From positions 1 to 50,281 of the forward strand of contig JAKAGV010000022.1 of the NCBI GenBank assembly GCA_021815405.1: a stretch of DNA of 50,281 nt. The letters are read 5' to 3'. A program made the translations under genes and the position numbers. This DNA is from Bacteroidota bacterium (GTDB lineage Bacteria > Bacteroidota > Ignavibacteria > Ignavibacteriales > Ignavibacteriaceae). The notes beneath the pieces were generated by a model, which was not told where the DNA came from, did no database searches, and saw only the letters and a program-made list of their open reading frames with translations. This document shows, in pieces, positions 6,514-24,901 of the stretch (position 1 is the first letter of the stretch; each line of letters opens with the position of its first letter).

Positions 6514-9500
6514 TTGCAAACTCAATCTTCAAAAATGATTACGGGAAAATTTATGCGGGCAAAACATAAAATCATTAGCTTTAGCTTACTTTTATTACTT
6601 CCTTTCATTCTAGGCAGTTCAAGTCTAAAAGACAACCAGGTTGAAGAGAGATTTAATCTTTATAATTATACCGTCTTTGAGCCCGGCAGTTACGTTTCGG
6701 TTAATCTTTTTTCCGCATCGAATGAAGCAAAGGAATTTCACTTTAAGTTATTTCGGATTGAAGATCCGCTTAAATATATTTCGCTTGCAAACAGGAACAA
6801 CCTTCGCTACAATTTTGATATTTGGGGAAAAGACGGTGAAGCCCTTCTCCGCTACACGAAACTTATAAAACAGTGGGATACGGTTTTTAATAGGACAAAC
6901 ACAAACTATTCCAACCGAAGCGTAAGTATCGGTAAGATTGACGATCCCGGCACTTATATTCTGCAGGCAGCAACCGGCGGCATGGTTGCTTACTGCGGAA
7001 TTTCCGTTTCGAAGCTTGCGATGATCTACAAAGACGGAGGCAGTCAGATTTTAGCTTTGGTTGTCGATGCAAAATCAGGAGCTGCGAGTAGTCAGGCAAA
7101 GTTTAGTTTGTTTGATGATGGAAAACTTGTCGGCAGCAAATCTTCCGGCAAAGACGGATTGGTTTTATTTAATATTGATGATTCGTCTTCTATAAAAGAT
7201 AAGAACATTCTGCTGATGGCGGAATCCGGCGGAGAAACCATTTTCAGTAATCCTTACTTTTTCATAAACCGGGAAATGGAAAGCAGAATAGCTTACGTTT
7301 ATACAAACCAGCCTGTTTACCGTCCTGGTCAGCAGGTTTATTTTAAAGCAATTTTTAGAGATAGAACTGGCGGCAGACTTTCAAATATTCCGGGAGAAAA
7401 GTTCGAAACAAAAATAAAATCACCAAGGAACCAAGAAATTTATTCCGGCACTCTTATCACGGACGAGTTCGGTTCACTTTCCGGAAGCTTTCAACTTGAT
7501 AAGGAAGCAGAGCTTGGGATGTATTCAATCCAGCTTCGCAGCGTAAGCGGATTTTATTCCGGTTCATTCGAAGTTCAGGAATACAAAAAGCCCGAATACC
7601 TGGTAAAAGTTGAAACCGGTAAAAAGCATTATGCCGGAGGTGATACTGTCAATGCAGTTGTTTCGGCAGAATATTATTTTGGTGCGCCGGTTACTACCGG
7701 GAAAGTCGAAGTAAAAATCTTCAAGCAGAATATCTGGCGACCCTGGTGGTACTGGCAGGAATATTCATGGTTCTACAAACCTTTTGCACAGAATTATTAT
7801 GTTCCGTTTATGAACCGCCAGCTAATAAGCCAGCAATCCGGCGAGCTAAATAAGGATGGTAAATACAACTTCACCTATAAAATTGATGAAGACAAATCCG
7901 CTGATTACATTTACACCTTTGAGGCAGAAGTAACGGATAATTCAAGAAACACCGTTTCGGGCTCGGCTCAAATTAATGTTACACGAGGAAGCTTTACACT
8001 TTCAACTTCGCCGGACAAACGATTCTCAAACGGCGGTGCTTTTGATCTACGTGTCAATGCATCTGATTTTCAAAACAAGCCGGTGCAGACTAAATTCTCG
8101 GTTGCTGTAAATTATCCGGTTCAATATGAAGAAGGGAAATCTTATCTGCCGATGAGCGATACTTTGTACGGACAGACCGATAAGTTCGGACGTGCCGTTG
8201 TTACTTTTCTTCCCCGAAGATTTTATCCCGGCAATTACAATTATATCGTTACTGCTTTCGATGAAAAAGGCAGAAAGATAACAGCACAAAATTCTTTCTT
8301 TATCGGTGAAGGTAGTCAATATAATCAAGGCGGGAAGCAGTTAGAGATTGTGACAGACAAAGATACATACGAAGCCGGCGACAGTCTTACTGCGTACATT
8401 TTTATTCCTCAGGATAACGCGGATGTCCTTCTTACATACGAAGCCAATTCTTTTTTAGGATACGAAGTAAAGCATGTTGAAGGAGGCAAAGCGACAATTA
8501 AGCTGAAGCTTACCGGGAAATATTCGCCAAGCTTCAACATCTCAGCAGCATATATAAAAGACAGGCAGTTGTTTACAACAACAAAGATGGTAGGAGTTTT
8601 AGATAAGAATAAGTTTCTTAACATTGCCATGAGACCTTCAAAAGAAAACTACAAGCCGGGAGAAGAAGCGAGCTACAAAATTTTTGTTACCGATAACGAA
8701 GGAAAGCCGGTAAAGAATACGGAGCTGTCCGTCGGTGTTGTTGATGAAAGCATTTACGCAATTAAGCCGGACGAAACACCTGACATCAAATCATTTTTCT
8801 ATGCACCGGTATATTCAAATATTCAGACTTACAGCTCGCTCAATAATATTTATTACAGCGGCTCAAGCAGGATTAAAACTTTAGCAGACGAGAAACTAAG
8901 CTTAAAAGATGTAAGCCCGGAAGGAAAAGGTTCTCTTTCCGGCAAGCTGGAAACCATAAAAGGGAAAGTAAAGTTTGATAACATTTATGTTTTGCTTAGC
9001 AGCGATTCTTTCTTTTATAAATCTCCGGTAGATACCGGCGGCAATTTCTCATTCAATAATATTAAAGAAGGTCAATACGAATTACTTGCACTCCTTGATA
9101 ACGGAGATATAATTTCTGCCGGTAAAATTTCTGTCGAAAGTAATTCTAGACAGAATATAAATCTCGGTAATTATGAAAACATTATTACCGAACCGCCAAG
9201 ATTCGATATTCAGCCGGGAATTCTTCGAAGAGCAGGAGTCGTTGATTTTTCTGCTGCTGCGGTTCAAGGCGTGCAGTTGAAAACTTCAAATGAATCACTG
9301 CTGCAGTTCGTTCAGCCGCAGGTAAGAAAGGATTTTGCCGATGCAGCTTTCTGGAAAGCTGACGTTGTTACGGATGAGAATGGTGAAGCCGAAATCAGCT
9401 TTAAGATGCCGGATAATCTTACCACCTGGAGAACGACTGTAAGAGGAATTACGAAGAATTCCGAAGTCGGGCAGAATACGGGAACGGTAATTACAAAGAA

Positions 9501-11532
9501 AAATTTGTTAGTAAGACTTGAAGCGCCGCGCTTCTTTAGAGAAGATGATGAGATAACAGTCTCAACTATCGTTCATAATTATTTAAGCGAAGAGAAGCTG
9601 GTGAAGGTAACCTTTTCGCCGGGAAATCTAAAGGTAACAGGCTCAAGAATTTCTTCCGGTGAAAATAATTCTGACTTAAACTTGAATAACGGCAGTAAGC
9701 GCTCATACGAAATCAAAGTCGCAAAGGATTCAGAAGTAAGAATTGATTGGAAAGTTAAAGTTGACGAGCCGATCGGTGAAGCAAAATTAAAAGCCGAAGC
9801 CTTGACGAATGAGGAGTCAGACGCAGTCGAGATAAAAGTTCCAATCCTTCCAAATGGAATTAAGAAGATTGAGTCTGTCGTTTCGGATTATTCCGAAGAC
9901 GGGACAAAGACATTAACATTCAATATTCCTTCCGATGTTGATTTAAGGACTGCGAAGCTTTCTTTTTCTGCCGCGCCTTCACTTGCCGGCACAATATTAA
10001 AATCGCTTGATGATTTGGCAGGCTATCCATACGGCTGTGTTGAGCAAACGATGAGCAGGTTCTTACCGACGATTATAGTTGCGAAAACCTTCAAAGAAAT
10101 CGGTGCTCCTCTGAATTCAAAAACAATAGAGGAACTGCCGAAGATGGCTGCGGCGGGTTTAAACAAGCTTTACAACTTCCAGCACGGCGACGGCGGCTGG
10201 GGATGGTGGACCAATGATGAGACTAATCCTTACATGACTGCTTACGTTATTTACGGGATGAGTCTTGCCAGGGAAGCCGGTTATAAAGTCGATACCCCTT
10301 CTTTCAAAAGAGGCATAGATAATCTGATTTATCAGATAGAGAATTTCGGAAACCTAAACTTCACGACACGCGCGTACATGCTTTACTCGCTATCAACAGC
10401 AATGGAATTAGAGAAAGAGAATTCCGGTAAGTTTAAACAGATTGCTAATGAACTTCTTAAAGAAGAATTAAATCCTTACGCATTATCCCTGCTTGCACTA
10501 ACTTTCAATAACTTTGACGAGCCGGCTTTGGTTAGCAGAGTGTTGAACCGAATTAAAGAATCTGTTGTCGATGAAAACGGATTAACTTACTGGGGCGGGA
10601 AGACCTGGCATTACTCATGGCAGAATGATAAAGTGCAGACAACTGCTTTTGCAGTAAAAGCATTGATGCTGGATAAAGATAATCTTCCGCTTGCTGCAAA
10701 GGCAGTGCGATGGCTGCTGCTGCAGAAGCAGGGTTTCTCATGGAGGTCGACGCAGGAAACTGCAAGCGTAATCTTCGGAATTACGGATTACCTGAAGTCA
10801 ACGCAGGAACTGAATCCTGATTTCAATGTTGAAGTCTTTGTAAATAATAAAAAAGAATTTGAGAAGAAGTTCACGAAGGCTGATGTTTTTGAAAACAGTC
10901 CGACAATTACCGTCAGCGGTATAGATACAAAGCTGTTTACTAACGGCGATAACAAAATCAAAATTATTAAAACCGGTGAAGGCAAGGTTTATTTTTCCGG
11001 TACAAATGAATATTACTCACCCGATGTGCAGCCTAAACCGGATAAGGATAAATTTTTAGTAACCCGAAATTATTTTATCCTTAAGCCGGTGAACAGAGGC
11101 GATAGAATTGTTTATGTAAAACATAAATTAGACGGTAAAGTTGAATCAGGGCAAAACATTTTAGTGCAGACTCATGTTGAATGCAGCGAAAACGATCTTA
11201 AATATTTTATACTTGAAGACATGCTTCCGTCCGGCTTTGAAGCGGTAAAGGATGAAAACAATTTCGAGATTGAAAATCAAAATGAAGATCCTCAGAGCAG
11301 AGCAAATATTATCATACCTTTTCCGAGATACTATGCAGACAGAGAATACCATGACAACAAAGTATCTTTCTTTGTAACGAACGTTAGAAAGGAAATGAAT
11401 TTTTCGTATATCATCCAAGCGCAGATGCCGGGCAGCTTTAATATAACTCCGGCGCAGGCTTATTTAATGTATTACCCGGAGGTGAATGGGAACAGCAAGC
11501 CGGAGAAGATTGAGGTGAAGGGAGTAAAATAA
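6514..11532 (+). CDS. Bacterial alpha-2-macroglobulin with thioester
   Basis: The 1672-codon frame encodes a bacterial alpha-2-macroglobulin, a periplasmic protease trap. An N-terminal signal (residues 14-37, KIISFSLLLLLPFILGSS) is followed by repeated macroglobulin beta domains, including the MG2 signature VYTNQPVYRPGQQVYFKA near residue 260. Next come the A2M core motif DENGEAEISFKMPDNLTTWR near 950 and an alpha-helical thioester domain with YPYGCVEQTMS, where Cys1175 and Gln1178 form the thioester. A C-terminal receptor-like domain (LEDMLPSGFEAV) lies near 1570. The longest start is TTG 6514; the in-frame ATG at 6553 directly before the basic and hydrophobic signal is more likely. In many proteobacteria the gene sits beside pbpC; here it does not. 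The frame is intact over 5 kb. Confidence 0.93.
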   Translation: MQTQSSKMITGKFMRAKHKIISFSLLLLLPFILGSSSLKDNQVEERFNLYNYTVFEPGSYVSVNLFSASNEAKEFHFKLFRIEDPLKYISLANRNNLRYNFDIWGKDGEALLRYTKLIKQWDTVFNRTNTNYSNRSVSIGKIDDPGTYILQAATGGMVAYCGISVSKLAMIYKDGGSQILALVVDAKSGAASSQAKFSLFDDGKLVGSKSSGKDGLVLFNIDDSSSIKDKNILLMAESGGETIFSNPYFFINREMESRIAYVYTNQPVYRPGQQVYFKAIFRDRTGGRLSNIPGEKFETKIKSPRNQEIYSGTLITDEFGSLSGSFQLDKEAELGMYSIQLRSVSGFYSGSFEVQEYKKPEYLVKVETGKKHYAGGDTVNAVVSAEYYFGAPVTTGKVEVKIFKQNIWRPWWYWQEYSWFYKPFAQNYYVPFMNRQLISQQSGELNKDGKYNFTYKIDEDKSADYIYTFEAEVTDNSRNTVSGSAQINVTRGSFTLSTSPDKRFSNGGAFDLRVNASDFQNKPVQTKFSVAVNYPVQYEEGKSYLPMSDTLYGQTDKFGRAVVTFLPRRFYPGNYNYIVTAFDEKGRKITAQNSFFIGEGSQYNQGGKQLEIVTDKDTYEAGDSLTAYIFIPQDNADVLLTYEANSFLGYEVKHVEGGKATIKLKLTGKYSPSFNISAAYIKDRQLFTTTKMVGVLDKNKFLNIAMRPSKENYKPGEEASYKIFVTDNEGKPVKNTELSVGVVDESIYAIKPDETPDIKSFFYAPVYSNIQTYSSLNNIYYSGSSRIKTLADEKLSLKDVSPEGKGSLSGKLETIKGKVKFDNIYVLLSSDSFFYKSPVDTGGNFSFNNIKEGQYELLALLDNGDIISAGKISVESNSRQNINLGNYENIITEPPRFDIQPGILRRAGVVDFSAAAVQGVQLKTSNESLLQFVQPQVRKDFADAAFWKADVVTDENGEAEISFKMPDNLTTWRTTVRGITKNSEVGQNTGTVITKKNLLVRLEAPRFFREDDEITVSTIVHNYLSEEKLVKVTFSPGNLKVTGSRISSGENNSDLNLNNGSKRSYEIKVAKDSEVRIDWKVKVDEPIGEAKLKAEALTNEESDAVEIKVPILPNGIKKIESVVSDYSEDGTKTLTFNIPSDVDLRTAKLSFSAAPSLAGTILKSLDDLAGYPYGCVEQTMSRFLPTIIVAKTFKEIGAPLNSKTIEELPKMAAAGLNKLYNFQHGDGGWGWWTNDETNPYMTAYVIYGMSLAREAGYKVDTPSFKRGIDNLIYQIENFGNLNFTTRAYMLYSLSTAMELEKENSGKFKQIANELLKEELNPYALSLLALTFNNFDEPALVSRVLNRIKESVVDENGLTYWGGKTWHYSWQNDKVQTTAFAVKALMLDKDNLPLAAKAVRWLLLQKQGFSWRSTQETASVIFGITDYLKSTQELNPDFNVEVFVNNKKEFEKKFTKADVFENSPTITVSGIDTKLFTNGDNKIKIIKTGEGKVYFSGTNEYYSPDVQPKPDKDKFLVTRNYFILKPVNRGDRIVYVKHKLDGKVESGQNILVQTHVECSENDLKYFILEDMLPSGFEAVKDENNFEIENQNEDPQSRANIIIPFPRYYADREYHDNKVSFFVTNVRKEMNFSYIIQAQMPGSFNITPAQAYLMYYPEVNGNSKPEKIEVKGVK

Positions 11533-11552
11533 CAGTTTAACATCAACTGAAG

Positions 11553-11600: not shown

Positions 11601-11617
11601 TTTATAAGGGAATGCTC

Positions 11618-13234
11618 ATGGGAGAAATTTCGCAGATTGCTTTGTACACAATATCGGGGAATAATTTATTTCGTCAGGGGATAAAAAATATTCTGACAGA
11701 AGAAATTGGAACTTCTGTCAAGGGATGTTTCAAAGATTGTGATTCCGCGTTAAATTATTTTTGCCATGATTCCTCTTTCCAAAAAAATAATAATGTTGTA
11801 TTCATAGAAGATCTTTCTTTCTGCAAAAAACAAACCCTTAAGCTCAAAAATAATTTGCATTCCTGTTTTAGACTTAGCAACATTAAAACGATAGTTTACA
11901 CTAACAGCCATGATGGGGAATATTTGGCTAAACTTAAACAATTAGAAGTTAATGCCATACTTCATGATGAAGAAACGCCGTTGAGGGAAGCTTTGCAAGC
12001 TGGTGGCAGGTCGTCGGTTGTTGTAGATGGGAAGCGGGAGGGTGGAAAGCAGAAGTCTCCGCCGAAGGCGGATGCGCCTCTGGCGCAAGTAGTCAGTAGT
12101 CAGAAGTCAGTGCTCGGATCACCGATAAGCCGGGGCAGACAAGACTTCGACAAGCTCAACCTCACAGCTCAGCAACAAGGCAAGAGATCAGAAATCAGTG
12201 AGCTATCATCTTTAAATTCTGAAAACTTTTTAAATTTCAGTCTGCCGGAACGTAAATGGAATACTGAGGAAGAAAAAGCGGGCAACTCCGCACTATGTGT
12301 ATATAAAAAGCTTTTAGATATTTTAAGCTTAGTAATCATCGAGAAAACATATTGTGCCGAAAAGGTAAACGCATTAATAAGCGGACACATTTGGGCAAGA
12401 AGTGAAAATGAAAGACTAATCATTCCTCTCGAGAATGAACTAAAAATAAATAATGCTGGAATTGATCGACATGCATTAGGTACAGTTAAGCAGAAGATTC
12501 GTGGACTAATTGTATCTGCAATGCCTTTGATAGCATCTGCAATAATGATGCTTTTCCCGGATGATGCTATTAGCTTTGATAAAAAAGAATTTTTAGATAT
12601 AAACGCAGAGAATCCATATGGGTTGCTTTGCGAAAACTCCGGTATTGATAATTATGATTTGATAATCCTGGATGATAACGATGATAAAGTTATTGGAGAG
12701 TCTTTGTTGAACATAGCGACGAGGAATCTGAATTTGCCAACAAAAAATGAGAGCAAAAAGGTAGTTAATAAGAATTTCGGGAGTAAGGTCATACTTTACA
12801 CAAGAAGCAAAGATATTCTTTACCTTAGACGCTTAAGAGACAAGTCAGTATTGGGATTGCTGCATGAAGAATCTTTAGCTGGAGCCGTTAAGCCATTGTT
12901 TGAGGGAAATAATTATGTCGATCCATCAATAGAAAATAAAATTAGGGAATATAATAAATACCTCATTGCTCATCCTTTAAGTAGGCTTACCTATTGTCAG
13001 TTGAAAGTTTTAAAAGAAATTGCGGAGGGATGGAAGAATCGCAGTATTACAGAGAAACTTTATATGACGATAGATGCCGTTGAGAAAGCTAAAGGCAGGA
13101 TTGAACATGCACTTAATATCTATTCTGATGAACTTACTCATTTCGCAATTGAGAACAGGGATGAAATAAAATATCTCCTAGAGTTTCCGCTAAAAGAAGA
13201 CACGTCGCTGGAAAAGAGGAATAGAAAGATATAG
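11618..13234 (+). CDS. Degenerate double-receiver LuxR-type regulator
   Basis: Start chosen at ATG 11618, seven bases after AAGGG; the ATG at 11612 is too close to it. The protein (about 538 aa) has a receiver-like N-terminus (GNNLFRQGIKNILTEE, then NVVFIEDLSF at the acidic strand). A low-complexity linker follows at roughly residues 135-190, then a helical region, a second receiver-like module (YDLIILDDNDDKVIGESLLN, then KVILYTRSKD) and a C-terminal LuxR helix-turn-helix (LTYCQLKVLKEIAEGWKNRS, then DAVEKAKGRIEHAL). The receivers lack a clear acidic-pocket layout and may be unphosphorylated. The linker is encoded by DNA of the same kind as nearby intergenic repeats. It lies directly upstream of the peptide locus and is a candidate regulator of it. 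Confidence 0.7.
   Translation: MGEISQIALYTISGNNLFRQGIKNILTEEIGTSVKGCFKDCDSALNYFCHDSSFQKNNNVVFIEDLSFCKKQTLKLKNNLHSCFRLSNIKTIVYTNSHDGEYLAKLKQLEVNAILHDEETPLREALQAGGRSSVVVDGKREGGKQKSPPKADAPLAQVVSSQKSVLGSPISRGRQDFDKLNLTAQQQGKRSEISELSSLNSENFLNFSLPERKWNTEEEKAGNSALCVYKKLLDILSLVIIEKTYCAEKVNALISGHIWARSENERLIIPLENELKINNAGIDRHALGTVKQKIRGLIVSAMPLIASAIMMLFPDDAISFDKKEFLDINAENPYGLLCENSGIDNYDLIILDDNDDKVIGESLLNIATRNLNLPTKNESKKVVNKNFGSKVILYTRSKDILYLRRLRDKSVLGLLHEESLAGAVKPLFEGNNYVDPSIENKIREYNKYLIAHPLSRLTYCQLKVLKEIAEGWKNRSITEKLYMTIDAVEKAKGRIEHALNIYSDELTHFAIENRDEIKYLLEFPLKEDTSLEKRNRKI
12031..12200 (+). repeat. Intergenic-type repeat inserted in frame in a coding region
   Basis: This stretch of the regulator gene contains CAGAAGTC twice, CCGCCgaaGGCGG and GCGCCtctGGCGC mini-hairpins and AGTAGTCAGTAGTCAGAAGTCAG-like units. 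The same TCAGAAGTC units are found in non-coding repeats at 22029-22118 and 23637-23718. The frame stays open across it. Confidence 0.6.
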
Positions 13235-13435: not shown

Positions 13436-13831
13436 ATGAAAACAAAAAATTCTAAAACGCTTATTTCACCTTTAAATTTTTCTGATGAGGAAGAATTTAT
13501 TAAAGTTGTTGGACATTTATTACCACCATCATGCTCTGAAGGCACCTTTACGACAACAGGTGGAAACGGAGGAGGAAGTGGGTCGACTTGTTCGCCAAGC
13601 GTTTTGTTTCAATACCCAGGCGGACCTTGCTTAGCCGTTTGTTCTGCTAATGGAGATTGTTCAAATTATCAAAATGCAGGTTATTACTGCACTGATTGTA
13701 CAGTGGGAATTGGAGCGGGCTGTAATATGGGAGGATGTGTTACTCAAACAAATGTTTGTTCATCTTGTAGTATTGATTCAGCAGAATCTGGATGTCTTTA
13801 CAATATGCAAATATTGGATCCAGGATTATAA
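13436..13831 (+). CDS. Cys-rich RiPP-like precursor peptide (131 aa)
   Basis: The 131-residue peptide has a charged N-terminal part (residues 1-30: MKTKNSKTLISPLNFSDEEE and on) and then a region rich in Gly, Ser and Cys with 12 cysteines, including pairs such as CTDC and CSSC and the motif CNMGGC. The last residues are LDPGL. It has no signal peptide. The leader motif KNS..L.SPLNF is shared with the 73-aa peptide at 15451. A radical SAM/SPASM gene follows after 84 bp, and proteases and an exporter lie downstream. Inference: a leader-core precursor whose cysteines are cross-linked (thioether-type) by the maturase. It could instead be a small Cys-rich structural subunit like QhpC. A second frame at 13650-13877 is a shadow. 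Confidence 0.65.
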   Translation: MKTKNSKTLISPLNFSDEEEFIKVVGHLLPPSCSEGTFTTTGGNGGGSGSTCSPSVLFQYPGGPCLAVCSANGDCSNYQNAGYYCTDCTVGIGAGCNMGGCVTQTNVCSSCSIDSAESGCLYNMQILDPGL

Positions 13832-13915
13832 ATATATTTCTATTTTAGCAATTTTAACGTACAAAGGAATTAGCTAGCAGATCTATATTAGGACTAACCC
13901 ACCCAAGAAGGAAGA

Positions 13916-15362
13916 ATGTACTATTATAACGAAAATGAAATTCATGTTTTTGAAATAAATAAACAGTATTTTCTAATTAATTCTAGAAACTTGAATTGCT
14001 GTGAAGTTTCTAATGTTATATTTAGGATTTTAAACTATGCTAACACTATAAATCCGAATAAAATTAAAATTGAACTAAAAAATGAATTTTCATCTGAAGA
14101 TATTGATGAATCAATTAAAGTTTTGATACAATGGAAAATACTCAAAGAAACATCCTCTGAGGTTATTAGAATTTATGATGAATATCAGAATCCTTATGAC
14201 GGAAACAATATATGGTTAAGCGGACTAAATTTGGTAATATAACAAGAATGTAATCTTAGATGTAAGTATTGTTCTGCCGAATATGGACATTTTGGAAATA
14301 AAAATAATTCTTATATGATGACAAGAGAAACAGCAAAAAAAGCTGTCGAGTTTTTAAAAAATAAACTTCCTCAAACAATAAGAGACCCAATGATTTTATT
14401 TGTAGGAGGCGAGCCATTATTAAACTTCAAAATAATAAAATATGTGGTTGAATATATAAAGAATGAAACTGATTTAAAACCTAAGTATTCTTTAAATACA
14501 AACGGAACATTAATGAGTGAGGAGATTGCAGAATGGTTTGTAAAAAATAATATCCATGTCCGATTTAGTATTGATGGAAGTAGGAAAATACACAATCAAA
14601 AATAGAGTATTTAAAAATGGGTATGGCTCTTACGAACGTGTAATAAACGGATTACAAAAGTACAAAAAATACTCAAGTTGGATATCTATTCAAGCGTCTA
14701 TACCATACGGAAAACAATTAAAAAGAGAAGTAAGAGAATTATGGAAAATAGGAGCGGAAGAAGTTTTGGCAAACCATACCGGAGAGAGTGCTTTTTTGAA
14801 TACAAAGAAATTTAAGATGACAAAAGAAAATCATGAAAATTATATGAAAGAGTGGAAAGAAATAAGTAATGAAATGATAGATAATATTATTAAATATGGG
14901 CATACGCCGACAATATATACTACAATAAGTTTATTAGAAAGGATACATAATAGAAATCTACGTTCAAAGGGGTGCGGAGCGGGGAGAGCTATAAGTGTTT
15001 TATCTAATGAAGAAATTTCTCTTTGCCAGGGTTTTGTTGGCTTGGATGGATATGTAATTGGAAATCTTGATGAAGGTATAGATAAAATTAAATTGGAAAA
15101 GTTTGGTGAATTATTTGTAAAGCATTTAAAAAAGTGTGAAAATTGCTGGGCAAAAAATATTTGTACTACTGGCTGTATTGCCCAGTCGGCAATGTACAAT
15201 GAATTAGACGATGAATTTGAACCATCCCGAACTTGTAATAAAGCGAAAGAGATGGTTGAATTTGTAATTTATCTTTATAATAAACTTAGAAAAGCTAAAA
15301 CTGTCAATTTAGATAAGTTGTTTCCGCAAAAAACTTTATATCAGCAGCCTATTACTCTTTAG
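13916..15362 (+). pseudogene. Radical SAM/SPASM peptide maturase, broken by a TAA and a frameshift
   Basis: Read through its lesions, this is one 482-codon gene in three pieces. Residues 1-108 form an N-terminal domain that may bind the leader. A TAA at 14240-14242 follows WLSGLNLVI, directly before QECNLRCKYC, the CX3CX2C cluster motif. The radical SAM core follows (FVGGEPLLN, SLNTNGTL, FSIDGSRKIHNQK). A run of five A residues at 14598-14602 leads into TAG; one more A would restore the frame into RVFKNGYGSYERV. The last piece holds a SPASM domain with seven cysteines (KGCGAGRA, SLCQGF, CENCWAKNICTTGC, SRTC), enough for two auxiliary clusters. The family makes Cys-based cross-links in peptides such as ranthipeptides and QhpC. 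With these lesions no active enzyme is expected unless both are recoded or are sequence errors. Confidence 0.85.
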
Positions 15363-15450
15363 CAAAATTGAATAATATTAAAGTAAAGCTCAATATTATT
15401 AAGACAAGCATAAATTATAATCATATTAACAAAATTGTTAGGAAAAAATT

Positions 15451-15672
15451 ATGAAAAATTCCAATCCTGTTTTAGTTCCATTAAATTTTAAAACAATTAA
15501 TGATTTTCAAATTCAAAATGAATTTGTAGGTGGGCCAACTTGTGATTGCTTTATTATGAACGCTACGACTTCAAATAATTCAGAAGCAGTTGATACTTTT
15601 TTAATTGGAAAGCTTTTAAACCCTGACCTAAAGCCTGAGTGTGCTAATGGTACCATCTTTCCAATTTACTAA
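15451..15672 (+). CDS. Second Cys-containing RiPP-like precursor (73 aa)
   Basis: The 73-residue peptide begins MKNSNPVLVPLNF, matching the leader of the 131-aa peptide (KNS..L[IV].PLNF). It then runs through NDFQIQNEFVGG, a GG-type leader end, into PTCDCFIMNATTSNN. Three cysteines (CDC and PEC) remain in the presumed core of about 41 residues, together with acidic residues that could be thioether partners. There is no signal peptide. It lies 88 bp after the maturase gene and ahead of the protease and exporter genes. The size, GG site and shared leader make a precursor role likely; the modification itself is inferred. Confidence 0.65.
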   Translation: MKNSNPVLVPLNFKTINDFQIQNEFVGGPTCDCFIMNATTSNNSEAVDTFLIGKLLNPDLKPECANGTIFPIY

Positions 15673-15934
15673 TAAACTCATAAGTAAAAGAGATTCATGA
15701 TAAACAAAAGATATCCAAAGAATGAAAAGCTAAATTGTGAACTTAGCATATGTTGAGTTTAATTAATAAATTATACTTTCCCCAAAATAAAAGGTCTAAC
15801 TATAACTAAAAGCTAATAATAAGTTGCAGCTAAAAGATTTATTTAGAATTTAAAATAAATTATTACTTATTGATTAGTAATCTTTCATTTTAATAGTTAA
15901 ATCAGACTTTGATTTTTTTACGAATTTAATTTCC

Positions 15935-17479
15935 ATGAAAGTAATTGCGATGAAGTCAAAAAATAATCCACATTCAATTTTAGAAAATTCACCTTTTTTA
16001 GAGCGTATAACAATTCTTCCAAAGAAGAATAAAGGAATAAAAGTTCTTTTGATAATAATTATTTCTCTTCTTTTCACAAATTGTTATCATAGCAAGCAAA
16101 AGTTTTATACAAAACCTAACTCTTATATTATTGATCAACTTGCAAATAAAAGAATAGCTATGCTTGGCGATTTTATGCATAGTTCTCCTGCTTCATATGA
16201 AAGCTTGATGTCATTACTTGATGAGTGGCTTGTAAAAATTAAGAATGGCGAATCGAAGAATTACAATGTTGTCTTAATCTTAGAAGCAGATACACAGGAG
16301 GTATCTGTTCTTAAAAGATTTATATCCAGTGGAGACTGGGAGCCATTTCTTAAATATTGGCTGCCTTATAATTCCTTAGAGTGGCTTGAATTCTGTTCGA
16401 ATTTAAGGTCGTTTGAGAATGAAATAAAGCAATTTAATGAAGATAAAGATAACGCTAAAATTAACTTCGACATATTTGGCGGAGAAGACGGTAATATTTT
16501 TGATCAGCCTAAAATGTTGAGTTATTCTGAGTTAGAAGGTTCAAAACTTTTTGTCGATAAAAGGGATAGTATTTCAGCTAAAAACATCATTAATTTTTTA
16601 ATTCAACATAAGAGTGCTAAAGCTATAATATTTTATGGAAACCTTCATCTTATCAAAAACTACGTCAATAAAAATTTGTATGATATATTACCTAATAATG
16701 AAGCATATGGATATTATTTGGCTCATTATCTTAAACAAGAATTTGGTGATGGGCAAGTTTTGTCAATAAATCAATATGAAGTTGCACAACAGACGATATT
16801 TAATGCACCGTTTTTTGCAACAAATGCCTGTGACATTTTTGTTTATAGCCGGTATATTCCCTGGAAGAACCTTCAACCTGAGAATTATGATGCATTTATT
16901 TTAAGACACGATAGTAGTGAAATACGAGGTCATAGCCTTGGAAATTTTTTTAGCATTAATGTAATTAATGCCGACATTAAAAAGATGCAGTTTCTAAAAA
17001 AATATTTTCCAGGGTATTTAGCTGAAGGCTATTATAACATAGCACAGCAATCATTAAGACTTATCACAGGCAAAAATTTTAATACTGTAAGTCAGTGGCA
17101 AAATTGGATAAATAATAATGTATATAATGGAGCAGTAAGGCTAGATTCTAAAAAGTTTGAAGATGATATGTATGATCTTTATTATCAGAATTTTGACAAC
17201 AATCAAATAAAGTCAGAATTATATTTAATGGGAATCGGATCAAAGATAGCAAACCGACAAGTACTTAGTAAATCTCAATGGGATATTCTTTGGAAAGAGT
17301 CATTACCTAAAATAAAATTTCTTAATGAAGTCGGAATTTATTGGATTGGTACAAAAGAAGAAAAGCGAATTGCACAAAAATATCTTGAAGAAAATATAGA
17401 TCGAATAAAATATGGGGAATTAAAAGAACCAGAAGATTATCTTAATTTATATAGGAAGATATACGAAAATGTAAAATGA
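15935..17479 (+). CDS. Lipoprotein with ChaN/erythromycin-esterase-like fold, in the peptide locus
   Basis: The 514-residue frame has an unusually long N-terminus (about 50 residues, partly basic) ahead of a hydrophobic segment VLLIIIISLLFTNC, which looks like a lipobox. Then follow RIAMLGDFMHSSPASYESL and, later, AIIFYGNLHLIKNYV, the paired motifs seen in ChaN/EreA-like (Tiki superfamily) proteins, where His and acidic residues form the active site. Its C-terminal 200 residues match nothing known to me. The stop TGA overlaps the ATG of the next protease gene (ATGA), so it is translationally coupled to the peptide locus. Possible roles are hydrolysis or heme/metal binding at the envelope; its substrate is unknown. 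An internal start nearer the lipobox could not be found. Confidence 0.5.
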   Translation: MKVIAMKSKNNPHSILENSPFLERITILPKKNKGIKVLLIIIISLLFTNCYHSKQKFYTKPNSYIIDQLANKRIAMLGDFMHSSPASYESLMSLLDEWLVKIKNGESKNYNVVLILEADTQEVSVLKRFISSGDWEPFLKYWLPYNSLEWLEFCSNLRSFENEIKQFNEDKDNAKINFDIFGGEDGNIFDQPKMLSYSELEGSKLFVDKRDSISAKNIINFLIQHKSAKAIIFYGNLHLIKNYVNKNLYDILPNNEAYGYYLAHYLKQEFGDGQVLSINQYEVAQQTIFNAPFFATNACDIFVYSRYIPWKNLQPENYDAFILRHDSSEIRGHSLGNFFSINVINADIKKMQFLKKYFPGYLAEGYYNIAQQSLRLITGKNFNTVSQWQNWINNNVYNGAVRLDSKKFEDDMYDLYYQNFDNNQIKSELYLMGIGSKIANRQVLSKSQWDILWKESLPKIKFLNEVGIYWIGTKEEKRIAQKYLEENIDRIKYGELKEPEDYLNLYRKIYENVK

Positions 17480-18204
17480 ATTCGAAATATTCACTAGATT
17501 TTGCTAAATATAATGGTAAAGGAATAAAGGTAGCTATAATTGATAGTGGATTAGATAAATGTCACTATCTTCCAAATATTGTTTCCAGCAAGGATTTTAC
17601 TATTACTTCCATAACATATAAGGCTGATGAAATTTGTAAAGATAAAATAGGACATGGCACTGCATGTGCTGGTATTATTAGCGAGAAGGCTCCGGAATCC
17701 GAATTATTGATTATCAAAATTTTTGATCTTGAATTAATTGCCAGCTATAAATTGTTATTGAATTCATTGAATTATGCTATTGAAGAAGGTGTTCATATAA
17801 TAAATTTAAGTTTAGGAGTTTATGAGGATTTTAATAAAGTTAAAAAGCTATATGACATTTGCCAGTATGCTTATGACAAAAATATTATTATAGTTTCAGC
17901 TGCAACAAATTTAGAAGGGAAATATTCTTATCCTGCAAATTTTGACAATGTCTTAGGGGTGACATCAGGTAAAATCGATTGTAAGTATGGATATAATTTC
18001 AGGCAAAACAATTCTGTAGAGTTAATTGCAAAAGGTGATTGGCAAAGAGTTAATTGGTTAATGGGAAAATCGGTCTTTAGATCCGGAAGCAGTTTAGCAG
18101 CTTCGCATATTACCGGTATTATATCATTAGTTTTACAAGCATTCCCAAATTCTGATCCTGAAAAAGTCAAAAAAATATTATTGTCAAATTTTAATTCAAT
18201 TTGA
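17476..18204 (+). CDS. Compact cytoplasmic subtilase (S8), candidate leader peptidase
   Basis: The 242-residue protein is a minimal S8 domain without signal peptide or propeptide. The catalytic motifs are complete: VAIIDSGLD (Asp), GHGTACAGII (His), an oxyanion Asn in AATNLEGKYSYPANF, and GSSLAASHITGI (Ser, equivalent to GTSMA.PH). It starts at the ATG overlapping the TGA of the preceding gene and ends one base before the ATG of the ABC exporter, so the three form a tight unit. A cytoplasmic subtilase beside a radical SAM maturase and an exporter without its own C39 protease fits leader removal, as proposed for QhpE in quinohemoprotein amine dehydrogenase maturation. Confidence 0.85.
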   Translation: MNSKYSLDFAKYNGKGIKVAIIDSGLDKCHYLPNIVSSKDFTITSITYKADEICKDKIGHGTACAGIISEKAPESELLIIKIFDLELIASYKLLLNSLNYAIEEGVHIINLSLGVYEDFNKVKKLYDICQYAYDKNIIIVSAATNLEGKYSYPANFDNVLGVTSGKIDCKYGYNFRQNNSVELIAKGDWQRVNWLMGKSVFRSGSSLAASHITGIISLVLQAFPNSDPEKVKKILLSNFNSI

Positions 18205-18205
18205 A

Positions 18206-20002
18206 ATGTATAATGAAATACCAAAACTTAAGGAGTCGTTTCAGCAGTTTAAAAGACTATTTCTTTTAGTAAGGTCCTATTGGGGGAAATTAATTAAGGG
18301 TATGTTACTTGGGGTAATAATCGGAATCATCGGGATGATTATGCAGTATTTTAGCAAATTACTGATTGACAAAGTATATCCAACACAAGATGCCACATTA
18401 ATGCAAGTTATAGTTGCAGGTATACTTGCCACTAGTATTGCTTCAACAATAATTGGAACTATACAGGGATATTTTAATCTTTATATAAACTCAAGGTTGA
18501 GCAATTCTGTTAGCCTTTTATTCTTTAACTACCTTCAACATCTCAAAGTTAGATTCTTTGATGAGCACCGTGTGGGAGAAATAATGAGCCGCTTTAGCGA
18601 TGTTAGTAAATCGCTTGGCTCTGTAAATAAGGTAATGCAGACAATTTTTGTAAACGGTATTTATCTGATTTTGGTCCCTCCCTTTTTATTTGTATTACAG
18701 TGGAAGTTAGCGATAGCGGCTCTAATAAGTCTACCAATTACCTTAACTATAATTGCCTTAACCGGAAAATTTTTGAGAAAATACTGGAAAAAATCTGCAG
18801 AGGCTTACGCCGAACTAAACGCATTCCAATTTGAAATGTTGACACACATACGTGCGCTTAAAGCGATGGTTCTTGAGCATCATGTATATTCCGAATCAAA
18901 AAGGCAAATGGAAAATGCCTTGCAGATTCAGCTAAAGGCAGGCGGAATGGGCCAGGTACTGGGTCTATCAAACGGAATATTAAGTGCTCTTAATACTGCT
19001 TTGTTTACCTGGCTCGGTTGGACGTTTATACTCTCACACCAAATGACATTAGGCGATTATATAGCATTTACAGCATATATAGGTTATTTATATAACCCTT
19101 TATCTCAGTTCATAGGGTTGTTTTCAGACTTTCAGCAATCAGCAATTAGTTTAAACCGCATGTTCGAGTATTTAGATTCTCCTGTTGAAATTACACCGAA
19201 CAATTCAATTAAGGAGAATAGAGAAGTAGAATTTTTATTAACAGGAAATATTGAAGTAAGGGAATTAACTTTTGGATACAATAAAGATATAAAAATACTA
19301 CGAAACTTAAACTTAAGCATTGAACACAAGTCAATAGTATCAATTGTCGGGGCAAGCGGATCCGGGAAGACATCACTAATACGCTTGCTGATTGGAATGG
19401 AAACTCCGGATAATGGAGTAATTTTATATGATGGAAAACCGATTTCGCAAATTCCGCTTTCCGATTTACGGAAACAGGTTACTGTTATCTGGCAGGAGTT
19501 CAGCATGTTTAGAGGTTCTATACTAGATAACCTTAATATCGGTCTCGAATATGTTGACAATGCTAAGATTATGAGGGCAATTGAAATATCAAGAGTAGAT
19601 GGACTTATTAATGATTTGCCGCAAGGGCTTAACACACCAATAGCTGAATGGGGTGCCAGTCTTTCAGGCGGTCAGCGGCAAAGGCTTGCAATTGCAAGGG
19701 CAATAATAAGAGATACACCAATAATTATTCTTGACGAAGCAACATCGAATATCGATCTGAAAACCGAAGCAGAAATTTTAAGAGATTTGTTCCATGAGGA
19801 AAGAAATAAAACGATAATCTTTGTTACCCATAGACTAACATCTGCTGCGCTTGCGGATAAAATTTGTCTGCTTGAAAATGGAACTGTACTGGATTACGGC
19901 TCACATAATGAATTGGTAGAGCGATGTGAATATTACAGGAAAATATATTTCGACAGTAGTAATAGAAATGAATCTTTGCTAAATATTAGTGAATATGAAT
20001 AG
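18206..20002 (+). CDS. ABC exporter (fused membrane and ATPase domains), peptide export
   Basis: The 598-residue half-transporter has six predicted membrane helices (residues about 30-300, type 1 exporter, with the RFFDEHRVGEIMSRF coupling region). The nucleotide-binding domain has a Walker A GASGSGKTS at residues 382-390, signature LSGGQRQRLAIARA, Walker B IIILDEATSNID and the H-loop VTHRL. There is no N-terminal C39 peptidase domain, unlike bacteriocin exporters of the PCAT type, so leader cleavage must come from elsewhere, presumably the adjacent subtilases. The stop overlaps the start of the HlyD gene. It probably exports the matured peptide; QhpF is the closest functional analogue by context. 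Confidence 0.9.
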   Translation: MYNEIPKLKESFQQFKRLFLLVRSYWGKLIKGMLLGVIIGIIGMIMQYFSKLLIDKVYPTQDATLMQVIVAGILATSIASTIIGTIQGYFNLYINSRLSNSVSLLFFNYLQHLKVRFFDEHRVGEIMSRFSDVSKSLGSVNKVMQTIFVNGIYLILVPPFLFVLQWKLAIAALISLPITLTIIALTGKFLRKYWKKSAEAYAELNAFQFEMLTHIRALKAMVLEHHVYSESKRQMENALQIQLKAGGMGQVLGLSNGILSALNTALFTWLGWTFILSHQMTLGDYIAFTAYIGYLYNPLSQFIGLFSDFQQSAISLNRMFEYLDSPVEITPNNSIKENREVEFLLTGNIEVRELTFGYNKDIKILRNLNLSIEHKSIVSIVGASGSGKTSLIRLLIGMETPDNGVILYDGKPISQIPLSDLRKQVTVIWQEFSMFRGSILDNLNIGLEYVDNAKIMRAIEISRVDGLINDLPQGLNTPIAEWGASLSGGQRQRLAIARAIIRDTPIIILDEATSNIDLKTEAEILRDLFHEERNKTIIFVTHRLTSAALADKICLLENGTVLDYGSHNELVERCEYYRKIYFDSSNRNESLLNISEYE

Positions 20003-21152
20003 CAATAAAATTAATGAAGAAAATATTTTTTCACTTCCTGAAATAGAAATAAAGCGAACGCTTCCTATCCGCCTCGTAAATAAATCTGTCAGCATTACAT
20101 TTCTAATAATAATTTCTTTTGTAATAGCAGCCACGATTATTTTATTCACTATTAAAACCAATCTATCTATAAGCGCCGACGGTATTTTATCTCCTTCAAA
20201 AATAATTCATTTACGTTCGCCGGAAAGCGGATTGATAAATAAAATCTTAGTTAAAAGCGGAGACACAGTAAAGGTTAATGAGGTATTAGTTATACTTGAT
20301 TCATTAGAATTAAAGAAAAGCCTTTTTGACATTCAGTCCCAAATATCTTCCGATGAAAATGCCTTCAACCAGAAGATTAAAAATGCAGCATTTAGTAAAA
20401 CACAGAATGAGCTCGAATTGAAAAGCGCTGAAGAGGGGCTGATTAAATCTAAAGCTTCTTTCAGAGACAGGATTTCGAGCTTCTTTCCAAAGGCAAATAC
20501 AGACTCTTTAATAAATAATTATAACCCGGGTGAAAATATTACTCTGGACTATGCGATGGCAGATGTGCATTCCGCAGAGACGGCTATACAACTTAGTAAG
20601 TTAAACATAAAAAAAGAATCATTAGTTAATTACGATCTTACTCAACTTCAAATTGAATTGAAGGGATTATTACAGCAGGAAAGAATAATTAAAGAAAAAT
20701 TAAAACATTTAATAATTAAGTCACCCGCTGCCGGTATTATATTAACAGAGGGTATAGAAGGTCTTTCAAACAGCTACTTTCAGCAAGGGGCAAAGCTAAT
20801 GGATATAGCAGAGACAAAGAATTGGGACGCTGTTTTATTCGTTAAAGAAGACGACATAAACAAAGTTAAAATTAATGATAAGGTAAAAATAAAACTTACC
20901 GCTTTACAATCTGAAGACGATTATAGACTTTTTAATGCCTCAATAATTTCAATTGGCGCTGAGAAGATCAATAATAACGGGAACTTCCAAAGCTACGCTG
21001 GTTTGTACAGAGTAACTGTCAAGGTTAATTTTAATAATGACAAATCTGATTTATCAAAACTAAAAAATGAATATAAAGTAAACGGGGAAATCATAACAGA
21101 TTCGGGAAAAATTGTTGATTTGCTGATTCGTTATTTTAGAAAGATAATTTAA
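19995..21152 (+). CDS. HlyD-type membrane fusion protein of the peptide exporter
   Basis: Start taken at ATG 19995, within the end of the ABC gene; a GTG at 19989 is also possible. The 385-residue protein has a short cytoplasmic tail, one membrane helix (SITFLIIISFVIAATIILF), a lipoyl-like segment (RSPESGLINKILVKSGDTVK), a long alpha-helical hairpin (about residues 100-240), the second lipoyl half (IKSPAAGIIL) and a beta-barrel domain. HlyD adaptors connect an inner-membrane exporter to the outer membrane. No TolC-type gene is in the window. Overlap with the exporter gene indicates coupled synthesis. Confidence 0.85.
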   Translation: MNSNKINEENIFSLPEIEIKRTLPIRLVNKSVSITFLIIISFVIAATIILFTIKTNLSISADGILSPSKIIHLRSPESGLINKILVKSGDTVKVNEVLVILDSLELKKSLFDIQSQISSDENAFNQKIKNAAFSKTQNELELKSAEEGLIKSKASFRDRISSFFPKANTDSLINNYNPGENITLDYAMADVHSAETAIQLSKLNIKKESLVNYDLTQLQIELKGLLQQERIIKEKLKHLIIKSPAAGIILTEGIEGLSNSYFQQGAKLMDIAETKNWDAVLFVKEDDINKVKINDKVKIKLTALQSEDDYRLFNASIISIGAEKINNNGNFQSYAGLYRVTVKVNFNNDKSDLSKLKNEYKVNGEIITDSGKIVDLLIRYFRKII

Positions 21153-21166
21153 TCTGATTATAATAT

Positions 21167-21931
21167 ATGATTAACAAACCATTGTATTTTGAAGGAAGTT
21201 TTTGCGAAATTCGAACTAAAAATATGCTTGAAAGAATCAGAACAGCAACAGGAATAGGCGTTAAGATTGGTGTTATAGACAGCGGATGGGATCGAAGTCT
21301 AATTGACAATCGAGTTCGTAAAGGTATTGGATTTGTAAATCCTCAAGATGAATTATTGCTTAAAGTTTCTTCAGATGACAATGATTTAAATGGTCATGGA
21401 ACGGCTTGCACGGATACTATCTTGCGTATTGCACCTGACTCTTTTATCTATCCAATCAAAGTCTTTGGAAAGAATATTGAGACCTCACCAAATATTTTAT
21501 TAGAAGGAATAAATTGGGCAATTAAGAAAGAATTGAAAATAATAAATATCAGCTTAGGCACATTACGTAAGGAAGCCTTAACTCCATTATACAAAATATG
21601 TGAAATTGCTAGAAGAAGAAGGATGATACTTGTGGCTGCTAAATCTAATGTTGACACTTCAAGCTTCCCTGCTATATTTGAAAATGTTATTGGAGTAGAG
21701 TCTGGAAACTTTGAAAGTATATTTAACTATGAATTCTAAAAAGATGAAGGCATTGAATGTAAAGCAAAAGGGGAATTTAATGACGTTTGCACTTTATCCG
21801 GCAAAAGAGTTAAATTATCAGGTAATAGCTTTGCCTGCGCTGTTATTACTAGTATTATTGCATTGCATTTACAAATTTCACCCAATGCAAATTTAAATGA
21901 AGTTAGAAAATTATTACAACAAGAATTGTAA
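21167..21931 (+). pseudogene. Second compact subtilase, split by an in-frame TAA
   Basis: Residues 1-190 carry the Asp motif (IGVIDSGWD) and His motif (NGHGTACTD), and SSFPAIFENVIGVES in the oxyanion region. The frame then meets TAA at 21737-21739. The same frame stays open for 63 codons (KDEGIECKAKGEFNDV and on) to a TAA at 21929, and holds LSGNSFACAVITSII, the expected position and pattern of the catalytic Ser. Read through, it would be a 254-residue paralogue of the subtilase at 17476. Without readthrough the product lacks its nucleophile and should be inactive. ORFs starting at 21711 are out of frame and not real. Confidence 0.8.
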
Positions 21932-22765: not shown

Positions 22766-23173
22766 TTATAACTCAACGTTATAATGCTGCATTATAAATT
22801 TTAGGATCTCGGTCTGGAAAAATTCGGCATTGTCTATTTGTTCCTTTGCCTCTTCTTTTCCGGCGACGTAAAAGTCTTCGTAATCGCTGTCCAGTCTCAT
22901 TTCAAAAGCACCAGATAATATTTCGTTCATCGTCTCCGGAAGAAGCTTTGTTTTAATAAAATGAAGATTGAACAAATGTGATACACCCTTATGTGTTTTG
23001 CTGTCGATGCCTTCTAGCGCAAAAAGCATTCTTACGGAATGAAATATTGAATAATAGGAGCTACCCAGAGAAACACTAAGAAGCTTGTTATCATAGGATT
23101 GTCTTGCACTTTTGAGTTCTTCCCTAGCTTTTTCAAGTCTGTATTTAGCAAGACTAATCTTTTGTTCATCCAT
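22766..23173 (-). CDS. HEPN-domain protein of a HEPN/MNT pair
   Basis: The 135-residue all-helical protein matches COG1895-type HEPN domains: KYRLEKAREELKSARQSYDN, SSYYSIFHSVRMLFALEG with its conserved Ser-Tyr-Tyr and Phe-His pattern, then KTHKGVSHLFNLHFI and an acidic C-terminal helix. The R-X4-H-X-Y motif of active HepT ribonucleases is not evident, so activity as a toxin is uncertain. It overlaps the upstream nucleotidyltransferase gene by 8 bp, the standard HEPN/MNT arrangement, commonly a toxin-antitoxin pair. Confidence 0.85.
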   Translation of the reverse strand: MDEQKISLAKYRLEKAREELKSARQSYDNKLLSVSLGSSYYSIFHSVRMLFALEGIDSKTHKGVSHLFNLHFIKTKLLPETMNEILSGAFEMRLDSDYEDFYVAGKEEAKEQIDNAEFFQTEILKFIMQHYNVEL

Positions 23174-23513
23174 ACAAACTTATTCCTTCATGCAGGACGT
23201 TCTGATAGAAAGGTACAAAATCTTTATACTTATTAAATACAGTTGTGTTAATTATTCTAATAGAGAGTAATATCTCGTGTGATATCAAAAATTCACTGAT
23301 AATTTTAACACGCAACTTCCTGTATTTTCTTAAATCATCGTCATTAATCAAAACAAATATGTCAACATCGGATTCATTATGGTAATCTCCCCGTGCATAA
23401 GAGCCGAAGAGCATAATCTTTAATACGTTATCACCAAATAATTCTCTTATTCTTTTTTCTATTTCAGGTAAGAGCGAATTTAATTTTTTATTATTTGTTA
23501 ATTTTGCATACAT
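23166..23513 (-). CDS. MNT-type minimal nucleotidyltransferase, partner of HEPN
   Basis: The 115-residue protein has the minimal nucleotidyltransferase signature GS-X10-D-X-D (GSYARGDYHNESDVDI) near residues 37-52 and a third acidic strand region downstream. Known MntA antitoxins transfer AMP to Tyr residues of HepT. It is first in the operon, with HEPN downstream and overlapping. The start is the ATG at 23513, followed by a Lys/Asn-rich helix. No sign of damage is seen in either gene. Confidence 0.88.
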   Translation of the reverse strand: MYAKLTNNKKLNSLLPEIEKRIRELFGDNVLKIMLFGSYARGDYHNESDVDIFVLINDDDLRKYRKLRVKIISEFLISHEILLSIRIINTTVFNKYKDFVPFYQNVLHEGISLYG

Positions 23514-24664: not shown

Positions 24665-24901
24665 ATGATTAGAGGGACTGTTGTCATTGAACGCGACATT
24701 TGCAAAGGATGCGAGCTTTGCATAGCCGCATGCCCGCAGGAAAGCCTCGGTTTATCGAGCAGCATAAATATTAACGGTTATAGATTTGCAGAACTCATTC
24801 AAGATAACTGCACGGGCTGTGTAAACTGCGCGCTGGTTTGCCCTGATGTTGCAATTACGGTTTACAGGCAGCCAAAGTCAGCAATCAAGAAAGCAGTATA
24901 A
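24665..24901 (+). CDS. korD: 2-oxoacid:ferredoxin oxidoreductase, ferredoxin (delta) subunit
   Basis: The 78-residue protein carries two complete [4Fe-4S] motifs, CKGCELCIAACP and CTGCVNCALVCP, as in the delta subunits of KorD/VorD type. It passes electrons from the TPP site to ferredoxin. It opens a four-gene operon with alpha, beta and gamma subunits; the alpha gene starts 25 bp downstream. Whether the enzyme uses 2-oxoglutarate (Kor) or branched-chain 2-oxoacids (Vor) cannot be decided from the sequence. Confidence 0.88.
   Translation: MIRGTVVIERDICKGCELCIAACPQESLGLSSSININGYRFAELIQDNCTGCVNCALVCPDVAITVYRQPKSAIKKAV

Follow-up and report, generated by a model that had tools for sequence, protein, structure and literature searches.

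The window analysed here is a stretch of 50,281 nucleotides from an Ignavibacteriaceae bacterium of the phylum Bacteroidota (assembly GCA_021815405.1, contig JAKAGV010000022.1), which carries at positions 13436–21931 a putative peptide maturation and export locus. This locus is probably a horizontally acquired, mosaic operon for a thioether-type ribosomally synthesized and post-translationally modified peptide (RiPP), decayed in this genome. The case is built from the gene content of the locus, breaks in its assembled sequence, the mosaic similarities of its parts, the island that holds it and its relatives in other genomes. Two sources would have contributed. The peptide–maturase–lipoprotein–subtilase block appears akin to the CLI_3235/CcpM cassette; the ABC–HlyD–subtilase block is of the type found in pinensin-type lanthipeptide loci.

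All eight genes of the locus are co-oriented on the forward strand, with peptide A first and subtilase 2 last. Peptide A (13436–13831; 131 aa, 12 cysteines) is a putative precursor, assigned from the list of open reading frames (ORFs) and from its likeness to a peptide in genome G074. A broken radical SAM/SPASM peptide maturase (13916–15362) follows, and then a second short precursor-like peptide, B (15451–15672; 73 aa, three cysteines), which has its leader in common with A. The next gene encodes a lipoprotein-like protein (15935–17479), recognized by eye from an LLFTNC motif behind a hydrophobic stretch and very weakly Ere/ChaN-like. Subtilase 1 (17476–18204; 242 aa), of the type belonging to maturase loci, has D/H/S motifs and, by eye, no signal or propeptide. 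The ABC exporter (18206–20002) has membrane and ATPase domains, and C39 peptidase is not among its Pfam matches. It is followed by a HlyD-type adaptor (19989–21152), matched by Pfam and NCBIfam, and by subtilase 2 (21167–21739), truncated by a stop and, like subtilase 1, recognized by the QhpE model. These last three genes are of the lanthipeptide-locus type by identity. Packing is tight from the lipoprotein onward: its gene overlaps that of subtilase 1 by 4 nt, a 1-nt gap precedes the ABC gene, ABC and HlyD overlap by 14 nt, and 14 nt separate HlyD from subtilase 2. An earlier reading of this DNA (the sequence-only reading) had listed two small cysteine-containing peptides with a shared leader, an ABC exporter without C39, a HlyD adaptor and a lipoprotein, mostly overlapping or within a few bases, and all of this stands. 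Its maturase and two compact subtilases are also present, but the maturase reading frame is interrupted and that of subtilase 2 is closed ahead of the serine motif. It was silent on which genes are broken here, and it missed that the export part is of the lanthipeptide-locus type.

The intact pathway would proceed in several steps. (i) Cysteine-rich precursors with a short 'PLNF/Y' leader would be cross-linked in the cytoplasm by the radical SAM/SPASM maturase. (ii) The links would most likely be cysteine thioethers, of the ranthipeptide or sactipeptide kind. (iii) A compact, apparently signal-less QhpE-like subtilase would remove the leader. (iv) The peptide would be carried out by the peptidase-less ABC exporter and the HlyD adaptor. 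(v) Finally, the surface lipoprotein may serve self-protection or a late processing step.

Related loci occur in two further genomes of the order Ignavibacteriales, and the window genome is G000 in these comparisons. On the minus strand of locus L032, G074 carries genes for ABC and HlyD, then for a 127-aa cysteine-rich peptide, a 478-aa maturase, the lipoprotein and a subtilase of 651 aa that includes a second domain, followed by an acyl carrier protein (ACP) and a nucleotidyltransferase. The G498 locus (L043) has matching genes from the maturase end through the nucleotidyltransferase, after which the contig ends. The order peptide–maturase–lipoprotein–subtilase is common to the window and G074, with ABC and HlyD upstream in the latter. 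The sequence-only reading had proposed a search for intact homologues, which G074 supplies and G498 only up to its contig end. It had also named loci with the maturase but never the peptides as a finding that would count against it; G074, the sole relative with a readable upstream side, has a related cysteine-rich peptide.

The leaders of peptides A and B are alike beyond chance (KNS..PLNF): the score over their first 30 residues was reached by none of 2000 shuffles, and that of the whole peptides by 8 of 2000. Peptide A and the G074 peptide align with a score of 65, where shuffles gave 37.6 ± 7.1 and 3 of 2000 reached it; for the leaders of these two peptides the count was 60 of 2000.

Read through its breaks, the window maturase shares 42% identity with its unbroken G074 counterpart. 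The CxxxCxxC motif and seven SPASM-type cysteines are kept and still recognizable, and the SPASM model TIGR04085 passes its cut-off of 27 with 42.3 bits. The search against radical SAM subfamilies that had been suggested earlier places the enzyme among the PapB, CcpM, SCIFF, nif11 and QhpD models, below every specific cut-off. The core piece in the window scores best with CcpM (112 bits) and PapB (110 bits), and the G074 protein with PapB (193 bits), then nif11 (178), SCIFF (175), CcpM (159) and QhpD (142).

The window copy itself has three lesions. After an N-terminal domain the maturase region meets a TAA at 14240–14242, just ahead of CxxxCxxC and with no start codon between, and it is frameshifted near 14600. 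Subtilase 2 ends at a TAA at 21737–21739, which precedes the segment bearing the GNSFA serine motif (21740–21931, closed by the next stop at 21929–21931). Were these breaks assembly or sequencing errors, the window locus could be functional; the frameshift falls in a short A-run, where a sequencing error is possible, the other operon genes are open, and the read-through maturase has kept its identity to the G074 enzyme. This explanation is quite unlikely, as it has to accommodate two separate in-frame stops and one frameshift inside 8 kb. Internal stops occur in one of the 28 radical SAM matches of the genome, the window maturase alone, and assembly error is for that reason unlikely to explain all three lesions. 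The window copy of the operon appears to have decayed, and with its maturase broken and second subtilase truncated, a cross-linked product is not expected from this genome. Subtilase 2 may have been redundant, and lost for that reason.

The mosaic composition is most evident in the subtilases and the export genes. The QhpE model NF049966 is the best for both subtilases, with 127.9 bits for subtilase 1 and 101.2 bits for the truncated part of subtilase 2; the G074 subtilase scores 122.4 bits, and all three lie below the cut-off of 165. The model matches something in 312 of 395 genomes of the phylum, none of which passes the cut-off, and exceeds 120 bits at only five places in four genomes (G385, G000 twice, G074 and G031), the next score being 90 bits. 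A dedicated compact-subtilase profile adds G498 and G493, giving 6 of 164 genomes of the order, and finds 7 of 391 in the class, the seventh being G593 with 117 bits in a longer protein. The remaining three compact-subtilase loci, those of G385, G031 and G493, are all class I lanthipeptide loci. G385 (L031) has a dehydratase and a cyclase by Pfam, and G493 (L174) has homologues of both; G031 (L033) has a cyclase homologue, and its contig begins at the precursor, so that any dehydratase gene would lie outside it. Five precursors were scanned, and one from each locus exceeds the cut-off of the pinensin leader model NF038180; of the other two, one falls below it and one is unmatched.

With these pinensin-type loci the window shares the ABC exporter, the adaptor and a compact QhpE-like subtilase (62–68, 41–46 and 55–58% identical). 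For the window ABC protein, identity is 68% to the G385 protein, 63% to that of G031 and 62% to that of G493, as against 31% to that of G074; the HlyD figures, in the same order, are 46, 41 and 42% against 25%. Ahead of its stop, subtilase 2 is 55–58% identical to the lanthipeptide-locus enzymes and 32–34% to those of G074 and G498, and in a subtilase tree it groups with two of the former (97/94). Subtilase 1 shows the opposite pattern, with 54% identity to the subtilase domains of G074 and G498 and 34–38% to the lanthipeptide-locus enzymes. On these identities, a maturase block and a lanthipeptide-type export block have been brought together in the window, and judged by sequence likeness the operon is a mosaic of two peptide-making systems. 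Base composition varies along it: G+C is 29–31% in the maturase, peptide B, the lipoprotein and subtilase 1, 36% in the ABC gene, 32–33% in HlyD and subtilase 2, and 37–38% in peptide A and a 540-aa ORF upstream, with flanks at 40.5 and 44.3%.

The same similarities could arise if the ABC–HlyD–subtilase 2 block were left over from a lanthipeptide locus of its own and adjoined the maturase block by chance, the two not forming one operon. Its three genes are far closer to those of pinensin-type loci than to those of the G074 locus, and subtilase 2 is decayed, both in keeping with such a remnant. The block nevertheless starts 1 nt behind subtilase 1 on the same strand, and the G074 maturase block likewise has ABC and HlyD genes alongside. 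In place of the lanthipeptide enzymes the window has a radical SAM maturase: none of its 435 ORFs of at least 25 aa matches the lanthipeptide-locus dehydratase, cyclase or five precursors at E 1e-3, and Pfam and NCBIfam scans of the window locus gave no match to a dehydratase, cyclase or pinensin-type precursor. A chance junction is unlikely on this evidence, and a single mosaic operon is preferred.

By gene set, the locus appears to resemble the CLI_3235/CcpM (TIGR04068) cassette more than any other known kind, the quinohemoprotein amine dehydrogenase (QHNDH) locus included. The sequence-only reading had placed the set outside any described class, which does not hold: clusters that combine TIGR04068, TIGR04066 and TIGR04069 with a subtilase and an ABC protein are described for SacP23 of Paenibacillus polymyxa in the accessible part of one paper (PMC10731318) and for Roseburia intestinalis L1-82 in that of another (PMC4573289). 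In the latter the precursor was not obvious to the authors; the SacP23 peptide, heterologously expressed, is reported in the title of its paper as active on methicillin-resistant Staphylococcus aureus (PMC10731318). As far as the available text goes, these clusters were termed sactipeptide or sactipeptide-like by their authors (PMC10731318, PMC4573289), and for this reason the linkage is left here between the two kinds. The window and G074 share with the cassette a SPASM maturase, a subtilase and an ABC exporter, and a cysteine-rich precursor as in SacP23. Two possible further likenesses come through G074 only. The model TIGR04066, 'peptide maturation system protein', scores 89.6 bits (cut-off 200) on the second domain of its subtilase, a domain that also matches DUF1611, and its ACP matches PP-binding with 43.4 bits, TIGR04069 not being among the 12 NCBIfam matches. 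The loci differ from the cassette in their HlyD adaptor and lipoprotein, and in that the TIGR04066-like domain is fused to the subtilase in G074 and G498 and missing from the window, where the 242-aa subtilase 1 has none. The TIGR04068 cut-off of 500 bits is far from reached, by the G074 maturase (159 bits) as by the window pieces (112 and 35 bits). 'Clo7bot' was considered as a name for the closest system and rejected, TIGR04334 being a separate Clo7bot model. A similar distance separates these enzymes from the ranthipeptide maturase PapB: its model NF047865 is the best NCBIfam model for the G074 maturase, but 192.9 bits fall short of the cut-off of 340, and at two loci whose maturases exceed that cut-off (L070, L125) no subtilase, lipoprotein or TIGR04066-like match was found.

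In QHNDH maturation QhpD, QhpE and QhpF have assigned roles; in the available part of the source, the leader of QhpC is cleaved off by QhpE inside the cytoplasm, and export of QhpC falls to an ABC protein (PMC7876137). The resemblance is clear, with a radical SAM maturase, a compact subtilase and an ABC exporter beside a cysteine-rich polypeptide, and the earlier proposal of thioether-type RiPP maturation and export by qhp-like logic, with no dehydrogenase found, is supported at the level of sequence. The locus could then be a QHNDH remnant, its peptide a QhpC-like subunit whose dehydrogenase genes are lost or elsewhere. QhpE being the best model of both subtilases would fit, and QhpD is second-best (67 bits, after PapB with 81) for the C-terminal piece of the window maturase. 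Such an origin is nonetheless very improbable. The G074 maturase is closer to PapB, nif11, SCIFF and CcpM than to QhpD, the neighbours there are a TIGR04066-like domain and an ACP, the subtilases stay under the QhpE cut-off, and HlyD and lipoprotein genes are present here. The QHNDH alpha-subunit model QH_alpha (TIGR03908) is unmatched in all three genomes (G000, G074 and G498), a negative without a strong positive control, since none of 14 control genomes passed the cut-off either. Membership of a QHNDH system is not supported, and a RiPP operon of mosaic origin remains the preferred account.

Several results weigh against that account, the A-run at the frameshift and the second-best QhpD score of the C-terminal piece among them. 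The conserved block is backed by one intact and one contig-cut locus only. Neither the window nor the G074 maturase exceeds a curated specific-family cut-off, and the peptides of both genomes likewise exceed none in the NCBIfam and Pfam scans. The likeness between peptide A and the G074 peptide leans much on cysteine, as 82 of 2000 shuffles reach the score once cysteines are masked, and that between peptide B and the G074 peptide over full length is at chance (878 of 2000). Subtilase 1 joins no strongly supported set with the G074 and G498 enzymes in the tree. Among ten window pieces scanned with Pfam and NCBIfam, TIGR04066 and ACP/TIGR04069 genes were not found.

The locus lies on an island with approximate ends at 11533 and 24664 (no strand assigned), defined by the site without the locus in two congeners. 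In these (G413, L198; G406, L199) a macroglobulin-like gene (window 6514–11532) abuts the ferredoxin/oxidoreductase genes that begin at window position 24665. The left-flank gene is present in two of the three congeners checked, G410 giving no match to it, and the right flank is directly next to it in both. Because the flanks adjoin in both, the intervening 13 kb or so reads as an insertion, and the operon as horizontally acquired. None of the 12 congeners listed, 79–99% complete, matches the maturase at E 1e-20 or the compact subtilase at E 1e-30. No mobile genes were recognized among the ORFs listed; flanking repeats were considered as ends of the island and rejected, none being convincing. 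The 540-aa ORF that immediately precedes the peptide locus (11612–13234) is absent from the site in the two congeners. Neither Pfam nor PADLOC matches it, and seen by eye its C-terminal part resembles a LuxR-type helix-turn-helix. On the opposite strand of the island (22766–23513) lies a HEPN and nucleotidyltransferase pair, toxin–antitoxin-like, whose nucleotidyltransferase also matches the PADLOC candidate family PDC-S09 (82.9 bits).

Wider searches returned few relatives of the maturase. In the order, 7 of 164 genomes match the G074 protein at 1e-20; apart from G000 and G074 itself, the G498 fragment is 65% identical to it and five further matches are 27–31% identical. None of the neighbourhoods of those five, two of which are short or start at a contig end, holds a subtilase, lipoprotein, TIGR04066-like, ACP or HlyD match at 1e-4. 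Across the phylum a maturase profile matches 9 of 395 genomes at 1e-30, with 972 bits for G074, two pieces in G000 and 133 bits for the next best. A scan of genome contigs, which relied on two peptide patterns and so covers only relatives that have them, gave 313 stretches and 148 relatives. The best 80 of these are each at most 30% identical, and none of their loci, many of them short, matches the subtilase, lipoprotein, TIGR04066-like or ACP queries at 1e-5. The top-ranked match, on an Aminicenantes contig (L049, 3527–6592; 30% identical), has two adjacent maturase-like ORFs. Among viral contigs, 94 stretches yielded no maturase relative. On plasmids, 163 records match the maturase, the ten listed being 23–28% identical, and of two loci opened one is that of a SCIFF maturase (723 bits); the G074 peptide and the G074 TIGR04066-like domain had no plasmid match. 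Subtilase 1 matches 343 plasmid records; the ten listed are 34–35% identical and carry no annotation beyond S8 peptidase.

The lipoprotein has no Pfam or NCBIfam match in the window. GD..H, E and FYG..H motifs are retained in most members of its family, and among 15 members there was no match to PF05139 (Ere), PF04187 (ChaN) or PF01963 (TraB), only four unrelated Pfam singletons at E 0.014–0.08. Alignment with hhalign against the family alignments gave E 4e-4 for Ere, 0.007 for ChaN and 0.058 for TraB; against single sequences E was 1.6e-4 to 0.17, and against eight single unrelated controls 0.14–0.86. Probabilities were only 0.4–51%. Motifs and alignments together give only a hint of the Ere/ChaN group. 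Searches of the lipoprotein profile against PDB sequences gave two chance-level ribosome-related matches, and the structure predicted for the protein alone (mean pLDDT, the predicted local confidence, 35) was not used. A distant erythromycin-esterase homologue is reported from some graspetide loci, and the authors, in the accessible part of their paper, guess at modification or resistance (PMC8939145).

The lipoprotein profile matches 24 of 391 class genomes. Of the 21 further genomes, 17 supplied 18 neighbourhoods, not all complete because of contig ends, and none of these contains a maturase, HlyD or compact subtilase match at 1e-4; one has an ABC protein (45–72 bits) and one a 957-aa subtilase (22–28 bits). 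The lipoprotein was accordingly rejected as a marker of the RiPP system. In a 22-row tree the window copy and the G074 and G498 copies fall in separate deep clades (100/100), and forcing them together is rejected (p-AU 2e-126, or 1.5e-9 without fragments) in a test that was framed after the tree was seen. The window and G074 lipoproteins are 23–28% identical, as against 42% for the maturases and 54% for subtilase 1. The separation of the clades suggests that this slot of the operon was filled twice, or that the gene was replaced.

A broader proposal can be offered only tentatively, and is more doubtful than the mosaic origin itself. These loci may represent a Gram-negative RiPP family whose maturation half (radical SAM) and export/leader-cleavage half (ABC, HlyD and compact QhpE-like subtilase) can be exchanged with their counterparts in pinensin-type lanthipeptide systems, and the Ere/ChaN-like surface lipoprotein, twice independently placed in one operon slot, would be a dedicated peptide-protecting or peptide-processing hydrolase. 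Already on the mosaic reading, one compact subtilase family ties together CcpM-type cysteine-rich peptides, QhpE-type proteases and pinensin-type lanthipeptides, so far treated apart, and an export cassette is seen changing partners between cross-linking chemistries. Among the open-licence papers listed, none was found on the mixed gene set or the shared compact subtilase, and the available part of a review on leader proteases in RiPP systems names neither (PMC10885120). The recurrent lipoprotein is a candidate immunity or late-maturation factor that lends itself to testing, and the G074 locus, being intact, is well suited to expression.

Some minor features lie within or beside the loci compared above. 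Next to the maturase loci of G074 and G498 (L032, 2055–6147; L043, 1034–4007) a second bacteriocin-like cluster was seen by eye; it comprises short peptides with a GG leader, proteins resembling thioredoxin and MauE, and an ABC exporter. Nucleotidyltransferase-like genes occur in G074 (L032, 7277–8125; PF04439, 184.9 bits) and, by eye, at L031 7768–8487 and L174 4940–5647. The G031 lanthipeptide locus contains a 661-aa ORF (L033, 2736–4721) that resembles an S41 peptidase by eye. The G593 protein (L184, 400–3602) has 574 aa with an N-terminal QhpE-like subtilase domain and stands beside an ORF that by eye resembles an ABC exporter, perhaps in another peptide locus.

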